Shown: piece by piece, positions 3 through 19,789 of the stretch
Numbering within the stretch: position 1 is the first letter of the stretch
How the letters are laid out: the number at the start of each line of letters is the position of its first letter
Assembly: GCA_036395115.1 (NCBI GenBank)
Contig: DASWDU010000048.1
Location: 1-32,761 of the forward strand
Length of the DNA: 32,761 nucleotides
Source: Thermoplasmata archaeon
GTDB lineage: Archaea; Thermoplasmatota; Thermoplasmata; RBG-16-68-12
Direction of reading: 5' to 3'
Made by a program: the position numbers and the translations under genes
Notes under the pieces: generated by a model
Told to the model about the DNA's origin: nothing
Databases searched by the model: none
The model's input: only the letters and a program-made list of their open reading frames with translations

Positions 3-980
3 CTCGAGCTCTCGTTCGCCCGCACGGACGCGAACTCGAACGGCTTCGCGGAGGAAGTCGACGGCCGCATCTACGTGTACGGCCGCGCGGACCTCAACTC
101 CGACGGCGTGATCGAGGTGCGGAAGGCGCTCGAGATCACGGTCGTCGCGACGGACTCGAACGACGACGGCAACCCCGAGCTGGCGCGGATCGCGCTGAGC
201 GGGGCGGTCGTCCGGGACATGGACCAGGACGGCACCGCGGAGTACCGCGCGAGCGTCGAAGGCGTGTTCGAGACCACGGACGAGAACTCGAACGGCATCT
301 TCGAACGGGCCACGCTGACGATCCGTGCCGAGGCGATCGTCGACCGCAACGACGACGGCGTGCCGGAGGACCACTCTTACGCGACCGTGGATGGCGTCGT
401 CGTGAACGCGATCGAGGATGAGTATGCGGACCGAATCGAGCTGCACTTCGTCGCGACGCGGGAACTCGACTTCGACTCCGACGGCATCGTCGACGAGCGG
501 CGCGGTGCGACGATCGACCTCCTCGCGGTCGATGAGAACTCGAACGGTGCCTTCGAGAGCGCGAACGTGACGATCCACACGAGCGCGGTCCGCGACGCGA
601 ACCACAACGGCGTGCCGGAGTACGAGGCCGCCTTCGTCGCGTACGGCCAAGCGACCGACGCGAACGATGATGGCAACGCGGAGCTCGTCACGGTAACCGC
701 GCGCGGATCCGCCGTGCAGGACGAGGACGAGAACGGCGTGCCCGAGATGACCGCGTATCTGCGCCTCGACGCGCAGTGGGTCGACGCAGACTCCAATGGC
801 GTCGTCGAGAAGGTCGACCTGACGTTCCGCGCGGAGCGCACGACCGATCCGGACCAGGACGGGACGCCGGACACGCATGAGTGGATCTTCGTCGAGTACC
901 ACGCGGAGGACATCGACCAGGATGGCACGATGGACAACGTGTATCTCCTCATCGAGAAGCACGTCGAACCTCATGCGTAG
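3..980 (+). CDS. Partial secreted-type protein of tandem 21-residue Ca-loop repeats
   Basis: The frame is open from the left edge, so the N-terminus lies outside the window; a GTG at 75 is only an internal codon. The visible part is almost entirely fifteen consecutive units of exactly 21 residues. Each unit starts with a loop of form D-x-[DN]-x-[DN]-G-x-x-[ED] (for example DANSNGFAE, DSNDDGNPE, DIDQDGTMD), followed by about 12 residues of alternating hydrophobic character that look like a beta strand. The seventh unit has lost the loop consensus. Odd and even units differ, giving a 42-residue super-period. Such loops resemble dockerin, EF-hand and thrombospondin-3 calcium loops, so a calcium-stabilised extracellular repeat fold is likely (inference). 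There is no C-terminal membrane anchor. A stem-loop terminator follows the stop. Function is not recognised. Confidence 0.85.
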   Translation, partial: LELSFARTDANSNGFAEEVDGRIYVYGRADLNSDGVIEVRKALEITVVATDSNDDGNPELARIALSGAVVRDMDQDGTAEYRASVEGVFETTDENSNGIFERATLTIRAEAIVDRNDDGVPEDHSYATVDGVVVNAIEDEYADRIELHFVATRELDFDSDGIVDERRGATIDLLAVDENSNGAFESANVTIHTSAVRDANHNGVPEYEAAFVAYGQATDANDDGNAELVTVTARGSAVQDEDENGVPEMTAYLRLDAQWVDADSNGVVEKVDLTFRAERTTDPDQDGTPDTHEWIFVEYHAEDIDQDGTMDNVYLLIEKHVEPHA

Positions 981-1277: not shown

Positions 1278-2015
1278 TCAGAGGTCGTCTGGCGGGAGTT
1301 CCTCGGGCGTGAGCTCCTCCGGGGCGGGCTCTGGCGGCGGAGGGACCGGTTCCACGGGCGGCGGCGCAGGTGCTTGCACTTCCGCGGCCTCGGCCGGAGC
1401 CTCCGTCGGCGGCGGGAGCTCGCCCATCGCCCACACCTCGGACTTCCGCACCTCGACGCGCGAGACGGGATGGATCGGCTTGCAGCCCAGGGCAATCGTC
1501 TTCGCGAGGTCGCCGCTGATGATGCCCTTGACGAACTCGCCGATCGACTGCTTCGCCGCGATGTCGGAGACGACCTTCGCCATGATCGCCCGCAGGACGC
1601 GTTGCTTGGACGACTGGATCCGTCGGTCGGTGATCGCCATCGGCTTCACCCGGACGTTCCATGCGTCTTTCGTGACGATGTCGACCGTGAGGTCCGTCCG
1701 CGTCCGCTTGCGCCGCGTGAGCCGTCGAATGTAGTCCGACGTCATGTCGTGCCCGACGAACTGCGTGAGGGCGTCCTGCCCCTGCACCTGGTTCACGCGG
1801 AACGCGAGCTTGATGTGCATCTTGCTGAAGTCGCCCGTCAAGTCCTGGACCGTGACTTCCGTCACCCGGCCGACGAGCTTGTCCGGCGTATCGGTCGGCG
1901 TCTCGCCGAGCAGCTGCTTGTTGAACATCTCCGGCGCGAGGAGGTTGTACCACACCTTCGCCTTCCACTTGTCCTTGATCTTGCGGGCGGCGGCGCGGGA
2001 CTTCTTCTCGGCCAT
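1278..2015 (-). CDS. rps3ae: Ribosomal protein eS1 (S3Ae) with acidic Pro-rich tail
   Basis: A small-subunit ribosomal protein of the archaeal/eukaryal eS1 family, which binds 16S rRNA near the mRNA exit. Residues 1-198 follow the family throughout: a basic N-terminus with KDKWKAKVWYNLLAPEMF, then the region around GHDMTSDYIRRLTRRKRTR, and an end at HPVSRVEVRKSEV. The protein is 245 residues, longer than the roughly 200 usual in archaea. The extra residues, about 199-245, are almost only Pro, Glu, Ala and Asp, with no Lys or Arg. The start is ATG 2015, with a TATA-like TTAAATA box 29 nt upstream, so the mRNA is probably leaderless. The gene stands alone, with no other ribosomal gene beside it. 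Confidence 0.95.
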   Translation of the reverse strand: MAEKKSRAAARKIKDKWKAKVWYNLLAPEMFNKQLLGETPTDTPDKLVGRVTEVTVQDLTGDFSKMHIKLAFRVNQVQGQDALTQFVGHDMTSDYIRRLTRRKRTRTDLTVDIVTKDAWNVRVKPMAITDRRIQSSKQRVLRAIMAKVVSDIAAKQSIGEFVKGIISGDLAKTIALGCKPIHPVSRVEVRKSEVWAMGELPPPTEAPAEAAEVQAPAPPPVEPVPPPPEPAPEELTPEELPPDDL

Positions 2016-2040
2016 GCGGGCGGTTCGAAGCGGCGTGCCG

Positions 2041-2047
2041 TATTTAA
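2041..2047 (-). promoter_or_regulatory. TATA box of the eS1 gene
   Basis: On the minus strand this reads TTAAATA, preceded by a C/T-rich stretch, and is centred 29 nt upstream of ATG 2015. That spacing places the transcription start at or next to the start codon. Confidence 0.65.
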
Positions 2048-2102
2048 GGGTTCTCGAGAGGCGATCTCACCCGCTACGTCCTATTCGAGAGTGGCACGGC
2101 CG

Positions 2103-2816
2103 CTAGGCTTGTTGTGGTGGGGTACGAACCGCCTCTGTCGGCGGCTTTCGTCGCTTGCGGAGAATGATGAAAACCGCGACGGTCACGACCCCCACCACCG
2201 CGATCCCGAGCGCGAGGATCAGGGGGTTCGACGGGCCAAAGAAGCTCTCCTCGATCGTGATCTTCGGGACGAGCGGGTCCGGGAAGGCGCCGACGAACGG
2301 AAACCGGTCGGCGCCGCCGTAACCTCCAACTCCTCCGTATACCGAGTCTCCGAGGCCGTCCGGGAAAGTGCAGACGGACTGATTGCCGCCGCTGCATCGG
2401 TCCGTTCCAGCGAAGTGCGACCAATAGTTGCCGCCCGACGGATACCCATCATCCCACACGAGACCCGTGTTCCCGCCGGAGTTCCATCCCTCGCTGTAGC
2501 TAATCTGGTAAAAGTTGTTGTGGTAGATGTGAGCCGAATTCGTGTAGGTGAAGAGGACACCCCCGCCGCCGCTCGGGCCGAAATGATTTGACGCGATCGT
2601 CACATTTGCCGCCGTTTCGATGGACACGGCCGAAGATCCGAGGGGAATGTCCGTGATCCGGTTGCGCGCAATCGTGACATCCGCCGTTCGGTAGAGCTCG
2701 ACGCCCATCTGGTGAATCCCCGCGATGTCGTTGTATTGGATCGTCATGTTCCCGGCTGCAATTCCGTAGATGCCGGTGAGGACATCATCCAGGGACGTGT
2801 TCTCGACGCCCTCCAA
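2103..2816 (-). CDS. NosD-like parallel beta-helix surface protein, N-terminally shortened
   Basis: The protein has right-handed beta-helix coils of the NosD/copper-binding type (units such as NMTIQYNDIAG, DVTIARNRITD, NVTIASNHFG). The usual closing segment follows, with YPSGGNYWSHFAGTDRC, a Gly-rich stretch and DRFPF. A C-terminal transmembrane helix (NPLILALGIAVVGVVTVAVFIIL) and a basic tail anchor it in the membrane. The first residues already sit inside the helix; no signal peptide and few coils precede them, whereas the family normally has many. I set the start at TTG 2816 because a TATA-like GAAATATG lies 29 nt upstream, but the frame is open to about 3062. Either it is a 5'-truncated relic or a short variant whose export is unexplained. 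Confidence 0.6.
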   Translation of the reverse strand: MEGVENTSLDDVLTGIYGIAAGNMTIQYNDIAGIHQMGVELYRTADVTIARNRITDIPLGSSAVSIETAANVTIASNHFGPSGGGGVLFTYTNSAHIYHNNFYQISYSEGWNSGGNTGLVWDDGYPSGGNYWSHFAGTDRCSGGNQSVCTFPDGLGDSVYGGVGGYGGADRFPFVGAFPDPLVPKITIEESFFGPSNPLILALGIAVVGVVTVAVFIILRKRRKPPTEAVRTPPQQA

Positions 2817-3292
2817 GCACGAAGGAGAAACGGAGCTCGACATATTTCGCGGTTGTGTTTCAGGCGAGCGGGAGGCGGACAACGTGGATGGGGCGATTGG
2901 CCGAAACGGAGCCTCGCTTGTGGTGCGAGACGCGCCCTGGGACTTCCGAGCAGGTTCATCGCCGGCATGGTGCTCCGACATGCGATCCCTCGGAAGCGTC
3001 ACGGAACGGCGTCTGGGCCGCTGAAGCCGCCTGCCCCCGCTCGACGGCCGAGGCGTATTCAAGGACCTGTAGGTCGACCCCAGAATACAGGGCCGGGACG
3101 GCGAAGTGGTCGAGGGGGTCGGCCGAGATGCAGGTGCGACGCCGTCCCGGATGATTGGGAAGTTCGATTCGCGCGATGGACCACGACACTATAGAACGGC
3201 GGCTTCGGCCCGCAAGGGGATGCACCTGGTGTAGTGCAATGTGTTCTGCCTCAAGGCCGCGCGACGATGCGCCGCGGAATCCGGCCCGCGCA
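2817..3292. other. Stretch without a convincing gene
   Basis: This interval lies between the shortened beta-helix gene and the GT-C-like gene. It holds a TATA-like GAAATATG on the minus strand at 2841-2848, suited to a start at 2816, and another TATA-like CTATAG at 3190-3195. The reading frames that cover it are Arg/Pro-rich and resemble no protein I know. No tRNA-like cloverleaf or repeat was seen. It may contain the decayed 5' part of the beta-helix gene. Confidence 0.4.
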
Positions 3293-4891
3293 CTAGCCCA
3301 GGATTTGTACCACGAAAATTCGATCGCCGCGCGGGCCCGCGACGTATGCGACTCGATTCGACGACAGGAACGTGTCGACGACGCTCGGGTCGAGGATGAT
3401 GTTCGGCGCCGGGTGCACCTGCGCGCCCACGGTGCTCCACCGCTCGAGGACGATGGCGTAGTCGAGCCCCGCGGTGCTCTCGTTGTCTCGCAGCTTGAGC
3501 GGCAACGAGCGGTCGGTCGTGTAGCCGAACCACATCGCGCCGATGTCCGCGAGGCGTTGGTCCGTCGTCACGTTCTTCGCGCCGAGGGACCCCAGGAGCG
3601 CGAGCGCCTGGAACTCGTCCGTGGTCGTCGTGTTCTCGACGCCGAAGACCGCGGGGGTGTTCCACGCCATCGGCGTCGTCGCGAGCAGCGCCGCGAGGAA
3701 GCCGCCCACCAGGGCGACCCGCGCGGCGCGATGCGGACGCAAGCCCTTCCACGCCGCCACAAAGGCGACGGCGGCCAGGAGGGCGAGCGCGTAGTCGAGG
3801 AAGTCGATGGACCGATACACAATCACGAGGCTCTCGGCGTCGAGGCCCCGCAAGAATCCGAAGAGCACCATGGCGACCGGCGCGACGAGCATCGACGTCA
3901 CCAGGTCGTTCGCGCGGTTCGACGTGCGGCGCACGAGCTGGTAGCCCGCCAGGACGAATGCCGTCAGGACCGCGATTGCGGGCTGGAGGGCGAGAAACGC
4001 GGCCTGCGTCGGGAGCGCCCCCGCGAACAGGCTCGTCTGCGCGTTCGCGAGGATGACCACGACTCCGACCGCAGGCGGCAGGATCACATGCGTGGCGGGC
4101 GACACGAGCCGCCGGCCGATTCGGATGCGCGCGGGTCGGGACATCGGCGCGATCGCGGCGGTCAACAGGACGACGAGGGCGAGGAACAACGCGAGCGCCT
4201 CCGGCGCGACGAGGTCCGCGAGGAACGGCAAGTCCACCGCGGCGTAGTACGCCCAGGCGGGGACGGCAAGGGCGGGTCCCGTCGCGATGTCGAGCACCAG
4301 CGCCCGGACCGAGAATCGTCCCTGCGACGACGCGCGGCGCTGCGTCAGCACGACGAGCGAGGCGACCATCCCGAGCGTCAGGAGGGTCGTGAGATGATGG
4401 AGGAACGGCAGGAACGCCAAAAGGACGAAGGCGAGCGCCCGCTTCCGCCGATCCGCTCGCTCGTGGAAGAGGAGCACCGCCACGGGGAACACGAGGAGCC
4501 CGATCGACTCCTTCGACACCCCGCTCGTGAGCATGAGGAAGCTCCCGAACAGCGCGACGAACAGGCCTGCGGCAAAGCCGACGAGCCGCCGACCGGACGC
4601 CTTCACGCCGATCAGATACGCAGGCAGGACGACGAGCGATGTGATCAGGACGACGACGAGCTCGACGGGCGCGAGGGGCTGGAGTCCACCCAGCATCGAG
4701 GCGGCGGCCCAGAGGAGGGAGAAGGCGGGCATCTTCTCGTTGTAGTTGTTGACGTCCGCCGGGTCGATTCGCCACGTCCCCGTCGTGGCGATCCCCTCCG
4801 AGATCCGCGCGAGCGGGAACCCGTCGATGTTGTAGGGCAACGGGCTGAAGGTGAGCGGCACGAGCCGGGCGGCCAGGGCGATGGCGTACAA
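3293..4891 (-). CDS. Multi-pass membrane protein, GT-C glycosyltransferase-like
   Basis: A 532-residue protein with about eleven hydrophobic helices and a soluble C-terminal part of roughly 120 residues. An acidic motif in the first extracytoplasmic loop (NIDGFPLARISEGI) and a FLHHLTT motif at a helix boundary are typical of archaeal GT-C-type enzymes, which use a dolichol-linked sugar and place the catalytic Asp in the first loop. That assignment is by pattern only; donor and acceptor are unknown. The TTG start at 4891 lies 26 nt after the upstream permease stop, so it should be the last gene of that operon. No ATG, GTG or TTG lies further upstream in frame over the nearest codons, although hydrophobic coding character extends a few codons before it. 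Confidence 0.7.
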   Translation of the reverse strand: MYAIALAARLVPLTFSPLPYNIDGFPLARISEGIATTGTWRIDPADVNNYNEKMPAFSLLWAAASMLGGLQPLAPVELVVVLITSLVVLPAYLIGVKASGRRLVGFAAGLFVALFGSFLMLTSGVSKESIGLLVFPVAVLLFHERADRRKRALAFVLLAFLPFLHHLTTLLTLGMVASLVVLTQRRASSQGRFSVRALVLDIATGPALAVPAWAYYAAVDLPFLADLVAPEALALFLALVVLLTAAIAPMSRPARIRIGRRLVSPATHVILPPAVGVVVILANAQTSLFAGALPTQAAFLALQPAIAVLTAFVLAGYQLVRRTSNRANDLVTSMLVAPVAMVLFGFLRGLDAESLVIVYRSIDFLDYALALLAAVAFVAAWKGLRPHRAARVALVGGFLAALLATTPMAWNTPAVFGVENTTTTDEFQALALLGSLGAKNVTTDQRLADIGAMWFGYTTDRSLPLKLRDNESTAGLDYAIVLERWSTVGAQVHPAPNIILDPSVVDTFLSSNRVAYVAGPRGDRIFVVQILG

Positions 4892-17801: not shown

Positions 17802-19550
17802 CTACTTGCGGGTCTTCTCCGGTTCGTGAGAGCCGGGCTCGGCACGCCGGTTCCGAGAGCGAAGTGGAAGGGCCCAGGCGACCAGACCCAATCCTCCGAT
17901 CAGCGGGGTGAACAAGAGCCCGCACGGCAACGATGGAGGGATCGGGGACTCGGCCGGCTTCGGAATTCTCATTCGCGCCACGAAGGCATCGGAGCTACCA
18001 TCGAGCGTCGTGTCAAAGGCCCCGACGGTGACCGGGAAGTCGGAGGAACCGGTCGACCCCGTCACGTAGACGTGGCTTTCGTTGTCAACGGCAAGGAGAG
18101 CGCCGTGATCCCAACCGCTTCCGCCGAAGTACGAGGAATAGGAAATCGCAGTTCCCGGGCTATCGAGTGTGAGGATGTAGCTATCTGTGAATCCGCGGTT
18201 GACCTTGCTCATCGCATCCGAGGTGGTGGGGAAGTCGGTGGAGGAGGTGACCCCAAGGAGGTACGTCGTCCCCGCGCCGTCTACCGCGACGGCTTGTCCA
18301 TTGTCATCTCCGCTTCCTCCCACGAATGTGGAGTAGAGAAGTGCCCCCTGCGGGTTCATCCGAAACAAGAAGCTGTCCGAGTTGCCCCCGTGATAGACTC
18401 GGCTGAGCGCGCCTTCCGTCGTTGGGAGATCCGTCGACGCCGTATATCCGGTCGCGGAGACGAGCCCGTTCTCGTCGAGCGCGAGCGACGTGATCCCGTC
18501 CGACCCGCTGCCCCCGAAGAAGGAACCGTAGGGCAAGTCCGTCCCGTCCGCATTGAGCCTGACGACGAAACCATCCGTGCCATTCAACGTCGCGTCGAAG
18601 GCACCGGAGCTGGTCGGGAAATCGTACGAATCGGTGGTCCCGACGACAATCGGGCTCCCAGACCCGTCGACGGCGATGTCCCTCGAGAAATCGCTACTCG
18701 TCCCTCCCAAGTAGGTTGAGAAGAGCAGACGATCTCCTTGTACGTCCAGCCGAGCCGCGTACGCGTCGCTCGTGCCATCCAGAGTCGTGTCGTAGGCGCC
18801 CGGCGTGATCGGGAAATCCGGCGAGTCAATGGTACCCGTGAAGTAGACCGTGCTGTCGGGTCCCAGCGCGAGGTGGGCGACCTCATCTTGGCCACTTCCG
18901 CCGATGTAGCTGGCGTAGAGCAGGTTCGCACCGTCCGGGCTCAGCTTCGCGAGAAAGCCGTCGCGTCCGCCGCTGTTGTTCCGGTTGAAGGCATCAGCGG
19001 TCGTGGGGAAATCGGTCGAGTCGGTCCATCCGGAGACATACACACTCCCCGAATTGTCGACAGCAACATCCAGGGCGTTGTCCGCTCCCGTGCCTCCGAG
19101 AAACGTGATGAACTCCGGGATCCCAGTTGCATTGAACTTTGCGACGAATCCATCGGACTCGCCTCGAAGAATCGAGTCGAAGGCCCCCGGGGTCACGGGG
19201 AAGCCCGGGGTATCGGGGAGGCTCGGGGCCGCGGTCTGGCCAACGACGTACACGTTTCCGTTAGCATCGACCGCCACGGTTTCGCCTTGATCGACCCCGT
19301 CACCTCCCAAGTACGTCGAGAAGGTGAGCTGGTCCGAAACTGACGCCTGCGTAGGCGGAGGATAGACGCTCAAGCGGGCTCCCGTGAACGCAGTCGGGGT
19401 CTCGGCCCACCCCTGGAAAAGTATCACGACCTGGAATGCGGCGGGAATCAACAAGATGAACACGGCGACGACGAACACCCTCGAGGACGCACCGCTCGGA
19501 CCACGAGCTGTTAAAATGTGCGGATTGCTCCCTCCCCAACCGTCATGCAT
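17802..19550 (-). CDS. SBBP-repeat seven-bladed beta-propeller surface protein
   Basis: A 582-residue protein. An N-terminal signal or anchor helix (SSRVFVVAVFILLIPAAFQ) is followed by seven repeats of about 62-65 residues. Each has the order STYLGGSG.D, AVD..G.VYV.G.T.S.DFPTT, GAFD, and D.F.ARL. These are SBBP repeats, which form a beta-propeller. A C-terminal helix (CGLLFTPLIGGLGLVAWAL) and basic tail anchor it, so the propeller is exposed outside. ATG 19550 is chosen because a TATA-like CCTTTATGT lies 22 nt upstream; the earlier in-frame ATG falls inside that box. Role is unknown, probably adhesion or binding at the cell surface. Confidence 0.9.
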   Translation of the reverse strand: MHDGWGGSNPHILTARGPSGASSRVFVVAVFILLIPAAFQVVILFQGWAETPTAFTGARLSVYPPPTQASVSDQLTFSTYLGGDGVDQGETVAVDANGNVYVVGQTAAPSLPDTPGFPVTPGAFDSILRGESDGFVAKFNATGIPEFITFLGGTGADNALDVAVDNSGSVYVSGWTDSTDFPTTADAFNRNNSGGRDGFLAKLSPDGANLLYASYIGGSGQDEVAHLALGPDSTVYFTGTIDSPDFPITPGAYDTTLDGTSDAYAARLDVQGDRLLFSTYLGGTSSDFSRDIAVDGSGSPIVVGTTDSYDFPTSSGAFDATLNGTDGFVVRLNADGTDLPYGSFFGGSGSDGITSLALDENGLVSATGYTASTDLPTTEGALSRVYHGGNSDSFLFRMNPQGALLYSTFVGGSGDDNGQAVAVDGAGTTYLLGVTSSTDFPTTSDAMSKVNRGFTDSYILTLDSPGTAISYSSYFGGSGWDHGALLAVDNESHVYVTGSTGSSDFPVTVGAFDTTLDGSSDAFVARMRIPKPAESPIPPSLPCGLLFTPLIGGLGLVAWALPLRSRNRRAEPGSHEPEKTRK

Positions 19551-19567
19551 GAATGTGTCATCGGAAT

Positions 19568-19576
19568 ACATAAAGG
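19568..19576 (-). promoter_or_regulatory. TATA box of the SBBP gene
   Basis: The minus strand reads CCTTTATGT, centred 22 nt upstream of ATG 19550, slightly closer than for other genes here. Confidence 0.5.
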
Positions 19577-19789
19577 ATTGTGCATCACCGAGTTCCAAGA
19601 GCTCCCATTGCAGCCCCGCCGTCTAGACATGGTCTTTCTAACCGCCCCGCGTGAGGCGACGGCGGATTAGTCTGCTCACAGTCGGGAACGTGTAGCGAAG
19701 CCTCCCGGGATCCGCCGCCATGCCCGCGGCGCCTTTTGCGGGCCTGGACACGAAATCCTCTTCCGACGACGTGCCGATGGCGAGCGCCC

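Follow-up and report, generated by a model that had tools for sequence, protein, structure and literature searches.

We propose, with a probability of about 0.6, that the gene at the start of the window (the whole 32,761-nt stretch of DNA analysed here) encodes a secreted surface protein of an uncultured archaeon in which an N-terminal helix and a linker precede a 25-unit β-meander with calcium loops, the whole serving as a scaffold made rigid by Ca2+. The repeat family is apparently undescribed and carries no name in the databases searched, and its calcium motif, known from elsewhere, is apparently used in a new arrangement, almost all turns of a long antiparallel sheet carrying such a loop.

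On the forward strand the frame is open from the window edge at position 3 to a stop codon ending at position 980 (325 aa), the gene being truncated by the contig end. It holds 15 units of exactly 21 residues (nt 27-971; residues 9-323 of this frame), just as in the earlier note, which counted fifteen units with no insertion over 315 residues, and the full gene extends the series to 25. With the search pattern D.[DN].[DNS]G in a single register, the loop D-x-[DN]-x-[DN]-G-x-x-[ED] was found in 14 of the 15 units; when the composition was shuffled 20,000 times, the motif total averaged 0.12 and never more than two fell in one register. The remaining unit, the seventh (nt 405-467), is degenerate and reads NAIEDEYAD, and as already described it has lost the loop consensus at an unchanged length of 21. 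The consensus first given for the loop, which ended in E, holds in the other 14 except at this ninth position, where E stands in 11 and D in three.

A 332-aa antisense frame (3-998) covers the same region and was rejected as incidental. Relative to orthologs, most substitutions in the window gene affect third codon positions, and the forward frame gives the highest amino-acid identity; for these reasons we take the forward frame, not the antisense one, to be the real gene. The forward frame is under purifying selection.

The window begins at the start of contig C48, and contig C7 of the same genome overlaps that start exactly with its terminal 141 bases. C7 carries the 5′ part of the gene, and the joined protein is 715 aa long. 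Its 25 units of 21 residues (residues 189-713) contain zero insertions, with the register unbroken across the join. A hydrophobic segment (approximately residues 17-40, after KRPPR) lies at the N-terminus, an Ala/Pro/Ser/Thr-rich linker extends to about residue 130, and a conserved stretch (FGFGVVPHDADAVRGAPD...CSW) separates linker and array. There is no C-terminal anchor, the protein ending in HA after unit 25. The anatomy suggests a protein held in the membrane by one N-terminal helix and exposed on the cell surface, so that its location would be extracellular. By search of its own genome the gene is single copy, other matches being parts of the same gene on C7.

Table 1. Coordinates of the repeat gene, its parts and its conserved neighbours (window positions unless a contig is named)
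Feature	Position	Strand	Basis or remark
C-terminal 325 codons and stop of the repeat-protein gene	3..980	+	open frame; 5′ part (~390 codons) on C7
5′ part of the repeat-protein gene	contig C7, L014:2-1309	minus	exact 141-bp overlap with window start
Array units 11-16 (window units 1-6), with canonical D-x-[DN]-x-[DN]-G-x-x-E loops	27..404	+	unit parsing
Unit 17 (window unit 7), loop consensus gone (NAIEDEYADRIELHFVATREL), length still 21	405..467	+	parsing and ortholog alignment
Units 18-25 (window units 8-15), canonical loops throughout; ninth-position D for E in three	468..971	+	
Last two residues (HA) and stop	972..980	+	sequence
Winged-helix-like 137-aa protein	contig C7, L014:6214-6624	+	no Pfam match
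345-aa multi-membrane-segment protein	contig C7, L014:7423-8457	-	no Pfam match

Several features of the array argue that its strands run up and down with the calcium loops as turns. Cross-strand hydrophobicity matches best at p+q=31 and 29, that is, in hairpins with the loop at their centre; even sums next to these give negative values, as antiparallel strands would, and parallel pairing of neighbouring strands scores near zero. One face of the strands (face A) is composed of 24% A, 19% V, 19% L, 9% I, 8% G and 6% F with few charged residues, and face B is rich in T, E, R, S, D and H. Architecture, conservation, register and this amphipathicity are direct observations, and because of the hydrophobicity pattern of the pairings we read the strands as antiparallel hairpins with an apolar and a polar face. 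In divergent families the one-sided register is mixed, and in some it is weak or absent. Most indels among members of the order fall in or beside loops. The loops of units 3, 5, 7, 8 and 17 are non-canonical in most orthologs; that of unit 17 is so in 17 of 17 aligned orthologs, two of which have an 11-aa insertion there.

The topology of the 25-unit body is predicted by structure models built on two-sequence alignments (the window and one relative). For residues 147-736 of the relative L015, from Euryarchaeota archaeon RBG_19FT_COMBO_69_17, aligned with the window, AlphaFold predicted 26 strands, each about 16 residues long and linked through 5-residue loops (mean pLDDT 70.5, pTM 0.55), and the window fragment alone gave the same topology (pLDDT 77.7, pTM 0.73). 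Strands flank all loops in the models, and no helix-loop-helix arrangement was found. Since the alignments had two rows and the five full-length models range in pLDDT from 70 down to 34, they predict a topology without settling the tertiary shape.

Four loops of the ortholog L026 resemble ordinary β-turns (VVANGTVAHAY, QKAQNGTLEM, VYAPDGSIVSHEW and NV-SDGRPH). Together with the hydrophobicity registers, the AlphaFold predictions and the placement of indels, these turns lead us to favour a β-meander whose hairpin turns are the calcium loops. This same-genus protein (genome G003, 1459-3678, minus strand) keeps its strands and has lost the calcium ligands in about 10 of 25 loops, several of which are NG/DG-type turns. 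It appears to be a natural calcium-poor version, and as such a natural experiment in which several loops have turned into ordinary turns.

These results displace the suggestion of the earlier note that the array is a regular solenoid with one Ca per turn. Strict unit length, calcium-type loops and the many repeats would suit such an RTX-like β-solenoid, but the strand faces of odd and even units alternate and their pairing register is antiparallel, adjacent units have low strand similarity, and AlphaFold predicts meander hairpins, not coils; with the placement of indels, this points to an antiparallel meander with calcium loops on both edges. RTX repeats are calcium-dependent β-repeats. Unlike the array, they consist of 9-residue GGxGxDxUx units forming a parallel β-roll; such nonapeptides are absent from the sequence, and there was no RTX match in Pfam. 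We regard a solenoid as highly improbable.

Foldseek returned no global match to a PDB structure. The best 50 neighbours listed were mainly outer-membrane meander barrels (SprA, LptD, TonB receptors, porins, BtuB, CymA), with vitellogenin also present and propellers and solenoids absent, at TM-scores of 0.35 or less and r.m.s.d. of roughly 15-45 Å. These neighbours, together with a face A that is nearly free of charge and strand numbers of 26 or 22 (deduced from unit counts) that are even, as a closed antiparallel barrel requires, bring up a large rolled or closed β-barrel with its apolar face directed at a lumen or at lipid, which would carry or span lipid and not act as a scaffold. Such a barrel is unlikely: scores of this size mean local meander resemblance only, the relative L072 has 27 units, and archaea of this group are not known to have an outer membrane. 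Outer-membrane barrels such as SprA, LptD, BtuB and CymA share with the array model a long up-down antiparallel meander; unlike them, the array has calcium loops on both sides, and no sequence homology was seen.

The array also has a longer period. When unit-versus-unit similarity was compared with unit-order shuffles, the odd/even alternation of strands proved real (lags 2, 4, 6 and 8), and to this extent the 42-residue super-period of the earlier note stands; a four-unit period of 84 residues, carried by loops and strands together, is nevertheless the stronger (p ~0.001 in the window's own protein), and the larger recurring unit is 84 residues rather than 42. At position 4 the loops of units 3, 7, 11, 15, 19 and 23 all have S; three of these (11, 15 and 19) read DxNSNG and the other three (3, 7 and 23) are close to it. 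A Dx[ND]xDGN[PA]E-like loop recurs in units 1, 13 and 21, and units 5 and 9 have variants of it. Six other members of the order show the 84-residue period, strongest at lag 4 or 8, and so do the more remote families L065, L071, L063 and L062 (the last at lags 4 and 8). Within the order, the protein of family f2 has 21 units, exactly 84 residues fewer than its relatives, the difference taking the form of two 42-residue alignment gaps.

The family is present in 26 of the 37 genomes of the order. The window query found no match in any sampled genome outside it; a profile search recovered diverged relatives from further families of the class and from other parts of the phylum, mostly of about 750-1400 aa, some with N-terminal PKD domains (L071, L074). 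Nothing matched in the plasmids, phages and viral contigs searched, so by these tests the gene is neither mobile nor viral. Twenty-five units were counted in the order, in families f19 and f57, in L074 and L071 and in the first array of L075, some of these counts being made by reading unit lists. Elsewhere L072 has 27 units, and f43 has fewer recognisable ones, with 14 or fewer in some proteins; these two cases led us to reject a rule of 4n+1 units everywhere. Members of the order keep the sequence and number of units in the whole array, and each unit tends to have a single counterpart (24 of 25 for L015, 19 for L027, 13 for L029); therefore the array is old and its turnover has not been quick. 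Unit-by-unit correspondence between this order and other families is not resolvable and so does not demonstrate a common 25-unit ancestor. L075, from another family of the phylum (1223+ aa), apparently has two successive 21-residue-repeat arrays. In L072 (88-2478, plus strand) the 27 units are nearly uniform and end abruptly at the C-terminus, within a loop; this array may have been recently amplified.

The period and the counts bear on another reading, a calcium-blade β-propeller in which the 25 units form six four-stranded 84-residue blades and a closing strand, the strands being connected by calcium loops as they are in integrin, PilY1 and VCBS propellers. A four-unit period in this order and in other families, the natural shortening of f2 by exactly 84 residues, and unit numbers fixed at 25 (6x4+1) across several divergent families, with 21 (5x4+1) for f2, would all follow, and the DxDxDGxx[ED] form of the loop is the same as in calcium blades (PMC3123361). 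Nonetheless, FG-GAP and VCBS profiles in Pfam gave nothing above cut-off (FG-GAP_3 reached E 0.32, in L072 only), the Foldseek neighbours and the models are not propeller-like, and each of the 25 links is as short as a hairpin turn, none being a longer connection between blades. In a propeller both faces of a blade are buried, whereas one face of the array sheet is polar. With the 27 uniform units of L072 also against it, we consider a propeller unlikely.

Searches of Pfam, NCBIfam, PHROGs and PDB sequences returned no family above cut-off, and we found no description of a 21-residue calcium repeat or calcium-loop meander in the literature. The setting apart of the array from dockerin, TSP3 and RTX repeats is thus borne out, Pfam giving no family match to the array: the dockerin profile had no match up to E 10, a TSP3 profile none over the array for the window or L015, and TSP3_bac matches are confined to a short segment at the N-terminus of L062. 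Thrombospondin type 3, bacterial TSP3 and dockerin repeats resemble the array in being tandem DxDxDG loops of secreted proteins. TSP3 and dockerin repeats have lengths other than 21, and their units are loop-only or helical; dockerin has two loop-helix repeats of about 22 residues, and the array has strands, not helices. The best sequence matches, all sub-threshold, were lanmodulins, whose loops are similarly acidic, and they raise the idea of EF-hand, lanmodulin or dockerin-like loop-helix repeats. The best of them scores 20 of the 135 bits required in NCBIfam, far below cut-off, and EF loops join helices, whereas by pattern and prediction the segments between the array loops are β-strands; this reading is extremely improbable.

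Loops of the type Dx[DN]xDG are known in 16 structural contexts (PMC3123361), among them the calcium blades of β-propellers in integrin alpha, PilY1, rhamnogalacturonan lyase and PVL lectin (Rigden et al. 2011, PMC3123361). Calcium blades, which are usually extracellular, have this loop between strands with an extra acidic ligand two residues on (PMC3123361), and the array presents the same loop, acidic residue and β context. They differ from it in that only some propeller blades carry the loop, which in the array stands at nearly every turn of 25 units with a strict 21-residue period.

From the anatomy of the protein and the known behaviour of such loops (PMC3123361) we infer export by the N-terminal helix, folding triggered by Ca2+ and a role as a rigid surface scaffold. 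The helix would export and hold the protein, with the disordered linker joining it to the body. Each unit would supply one calcium loop, Dx[DN]x[DN]GxxE, as a β-hairpin turn, and one strand; successive strands would run antiparallel, placing the loops on both edges of one long sheet with apolar and polar faces, a fold that would recur every four strands (84 residues). The chain may stay unfolded until it meets millimolar external Ca2+, whereupon some 15-24 ions would lock the hairpins into a rigid scaffold or stalk, the apolar face being buried by rolling up, by packing sheet on sheet or by a partner. Calcium binding, overall shape and scaffold role are deductions of this kind. A bolder version, to which we give little credence, is a new calcium-dependent fold, a rolled meander of 22 or 26 strands with Ca2+ stapling almost all turns along both edges, its charge-free face turned to lipid or membrane, and used in many lineages of the phylum with a fixed strand number. 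Within this archaeal phylum the repeat family is widespread, and its divergent lineages often share one unit number, a constancy unusual among repeat proteins; a calcium-stapled meander, if real, would offer a modular, designable rigid β-scaffold.

In seven of the neighbourhoods examined within the order (families f1, f3 and f5) the repeat gene adjoins genes for a winged-helix-like protein of 122-137 aa and a multi-membrane-segment protein of about 340 aa, for which searches gave no family or functional name. On C7 a 1550-aa AMP-binding/carrier/hexapeptide-repeat protein (L014:1565-6217, plus strand) lies between the repeat gene and these neighbours; in none of the other neighbourhoods compared was it found next to the repeat gene. 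A short way from the repeat gene in the window is a β-helix/NosD-type protein with a C-terminal membrane segment (2103-3062, minus strand). Further along, positions 17802-19598 (minus strand) encode a 598-aa protein of repeated (F/Y)GGSG.D...VAVD..G..Y..G.T.S.DFP units, presumably similar to SBBP-type repeat proteins, which also ends in a C-terminal membrane segment.
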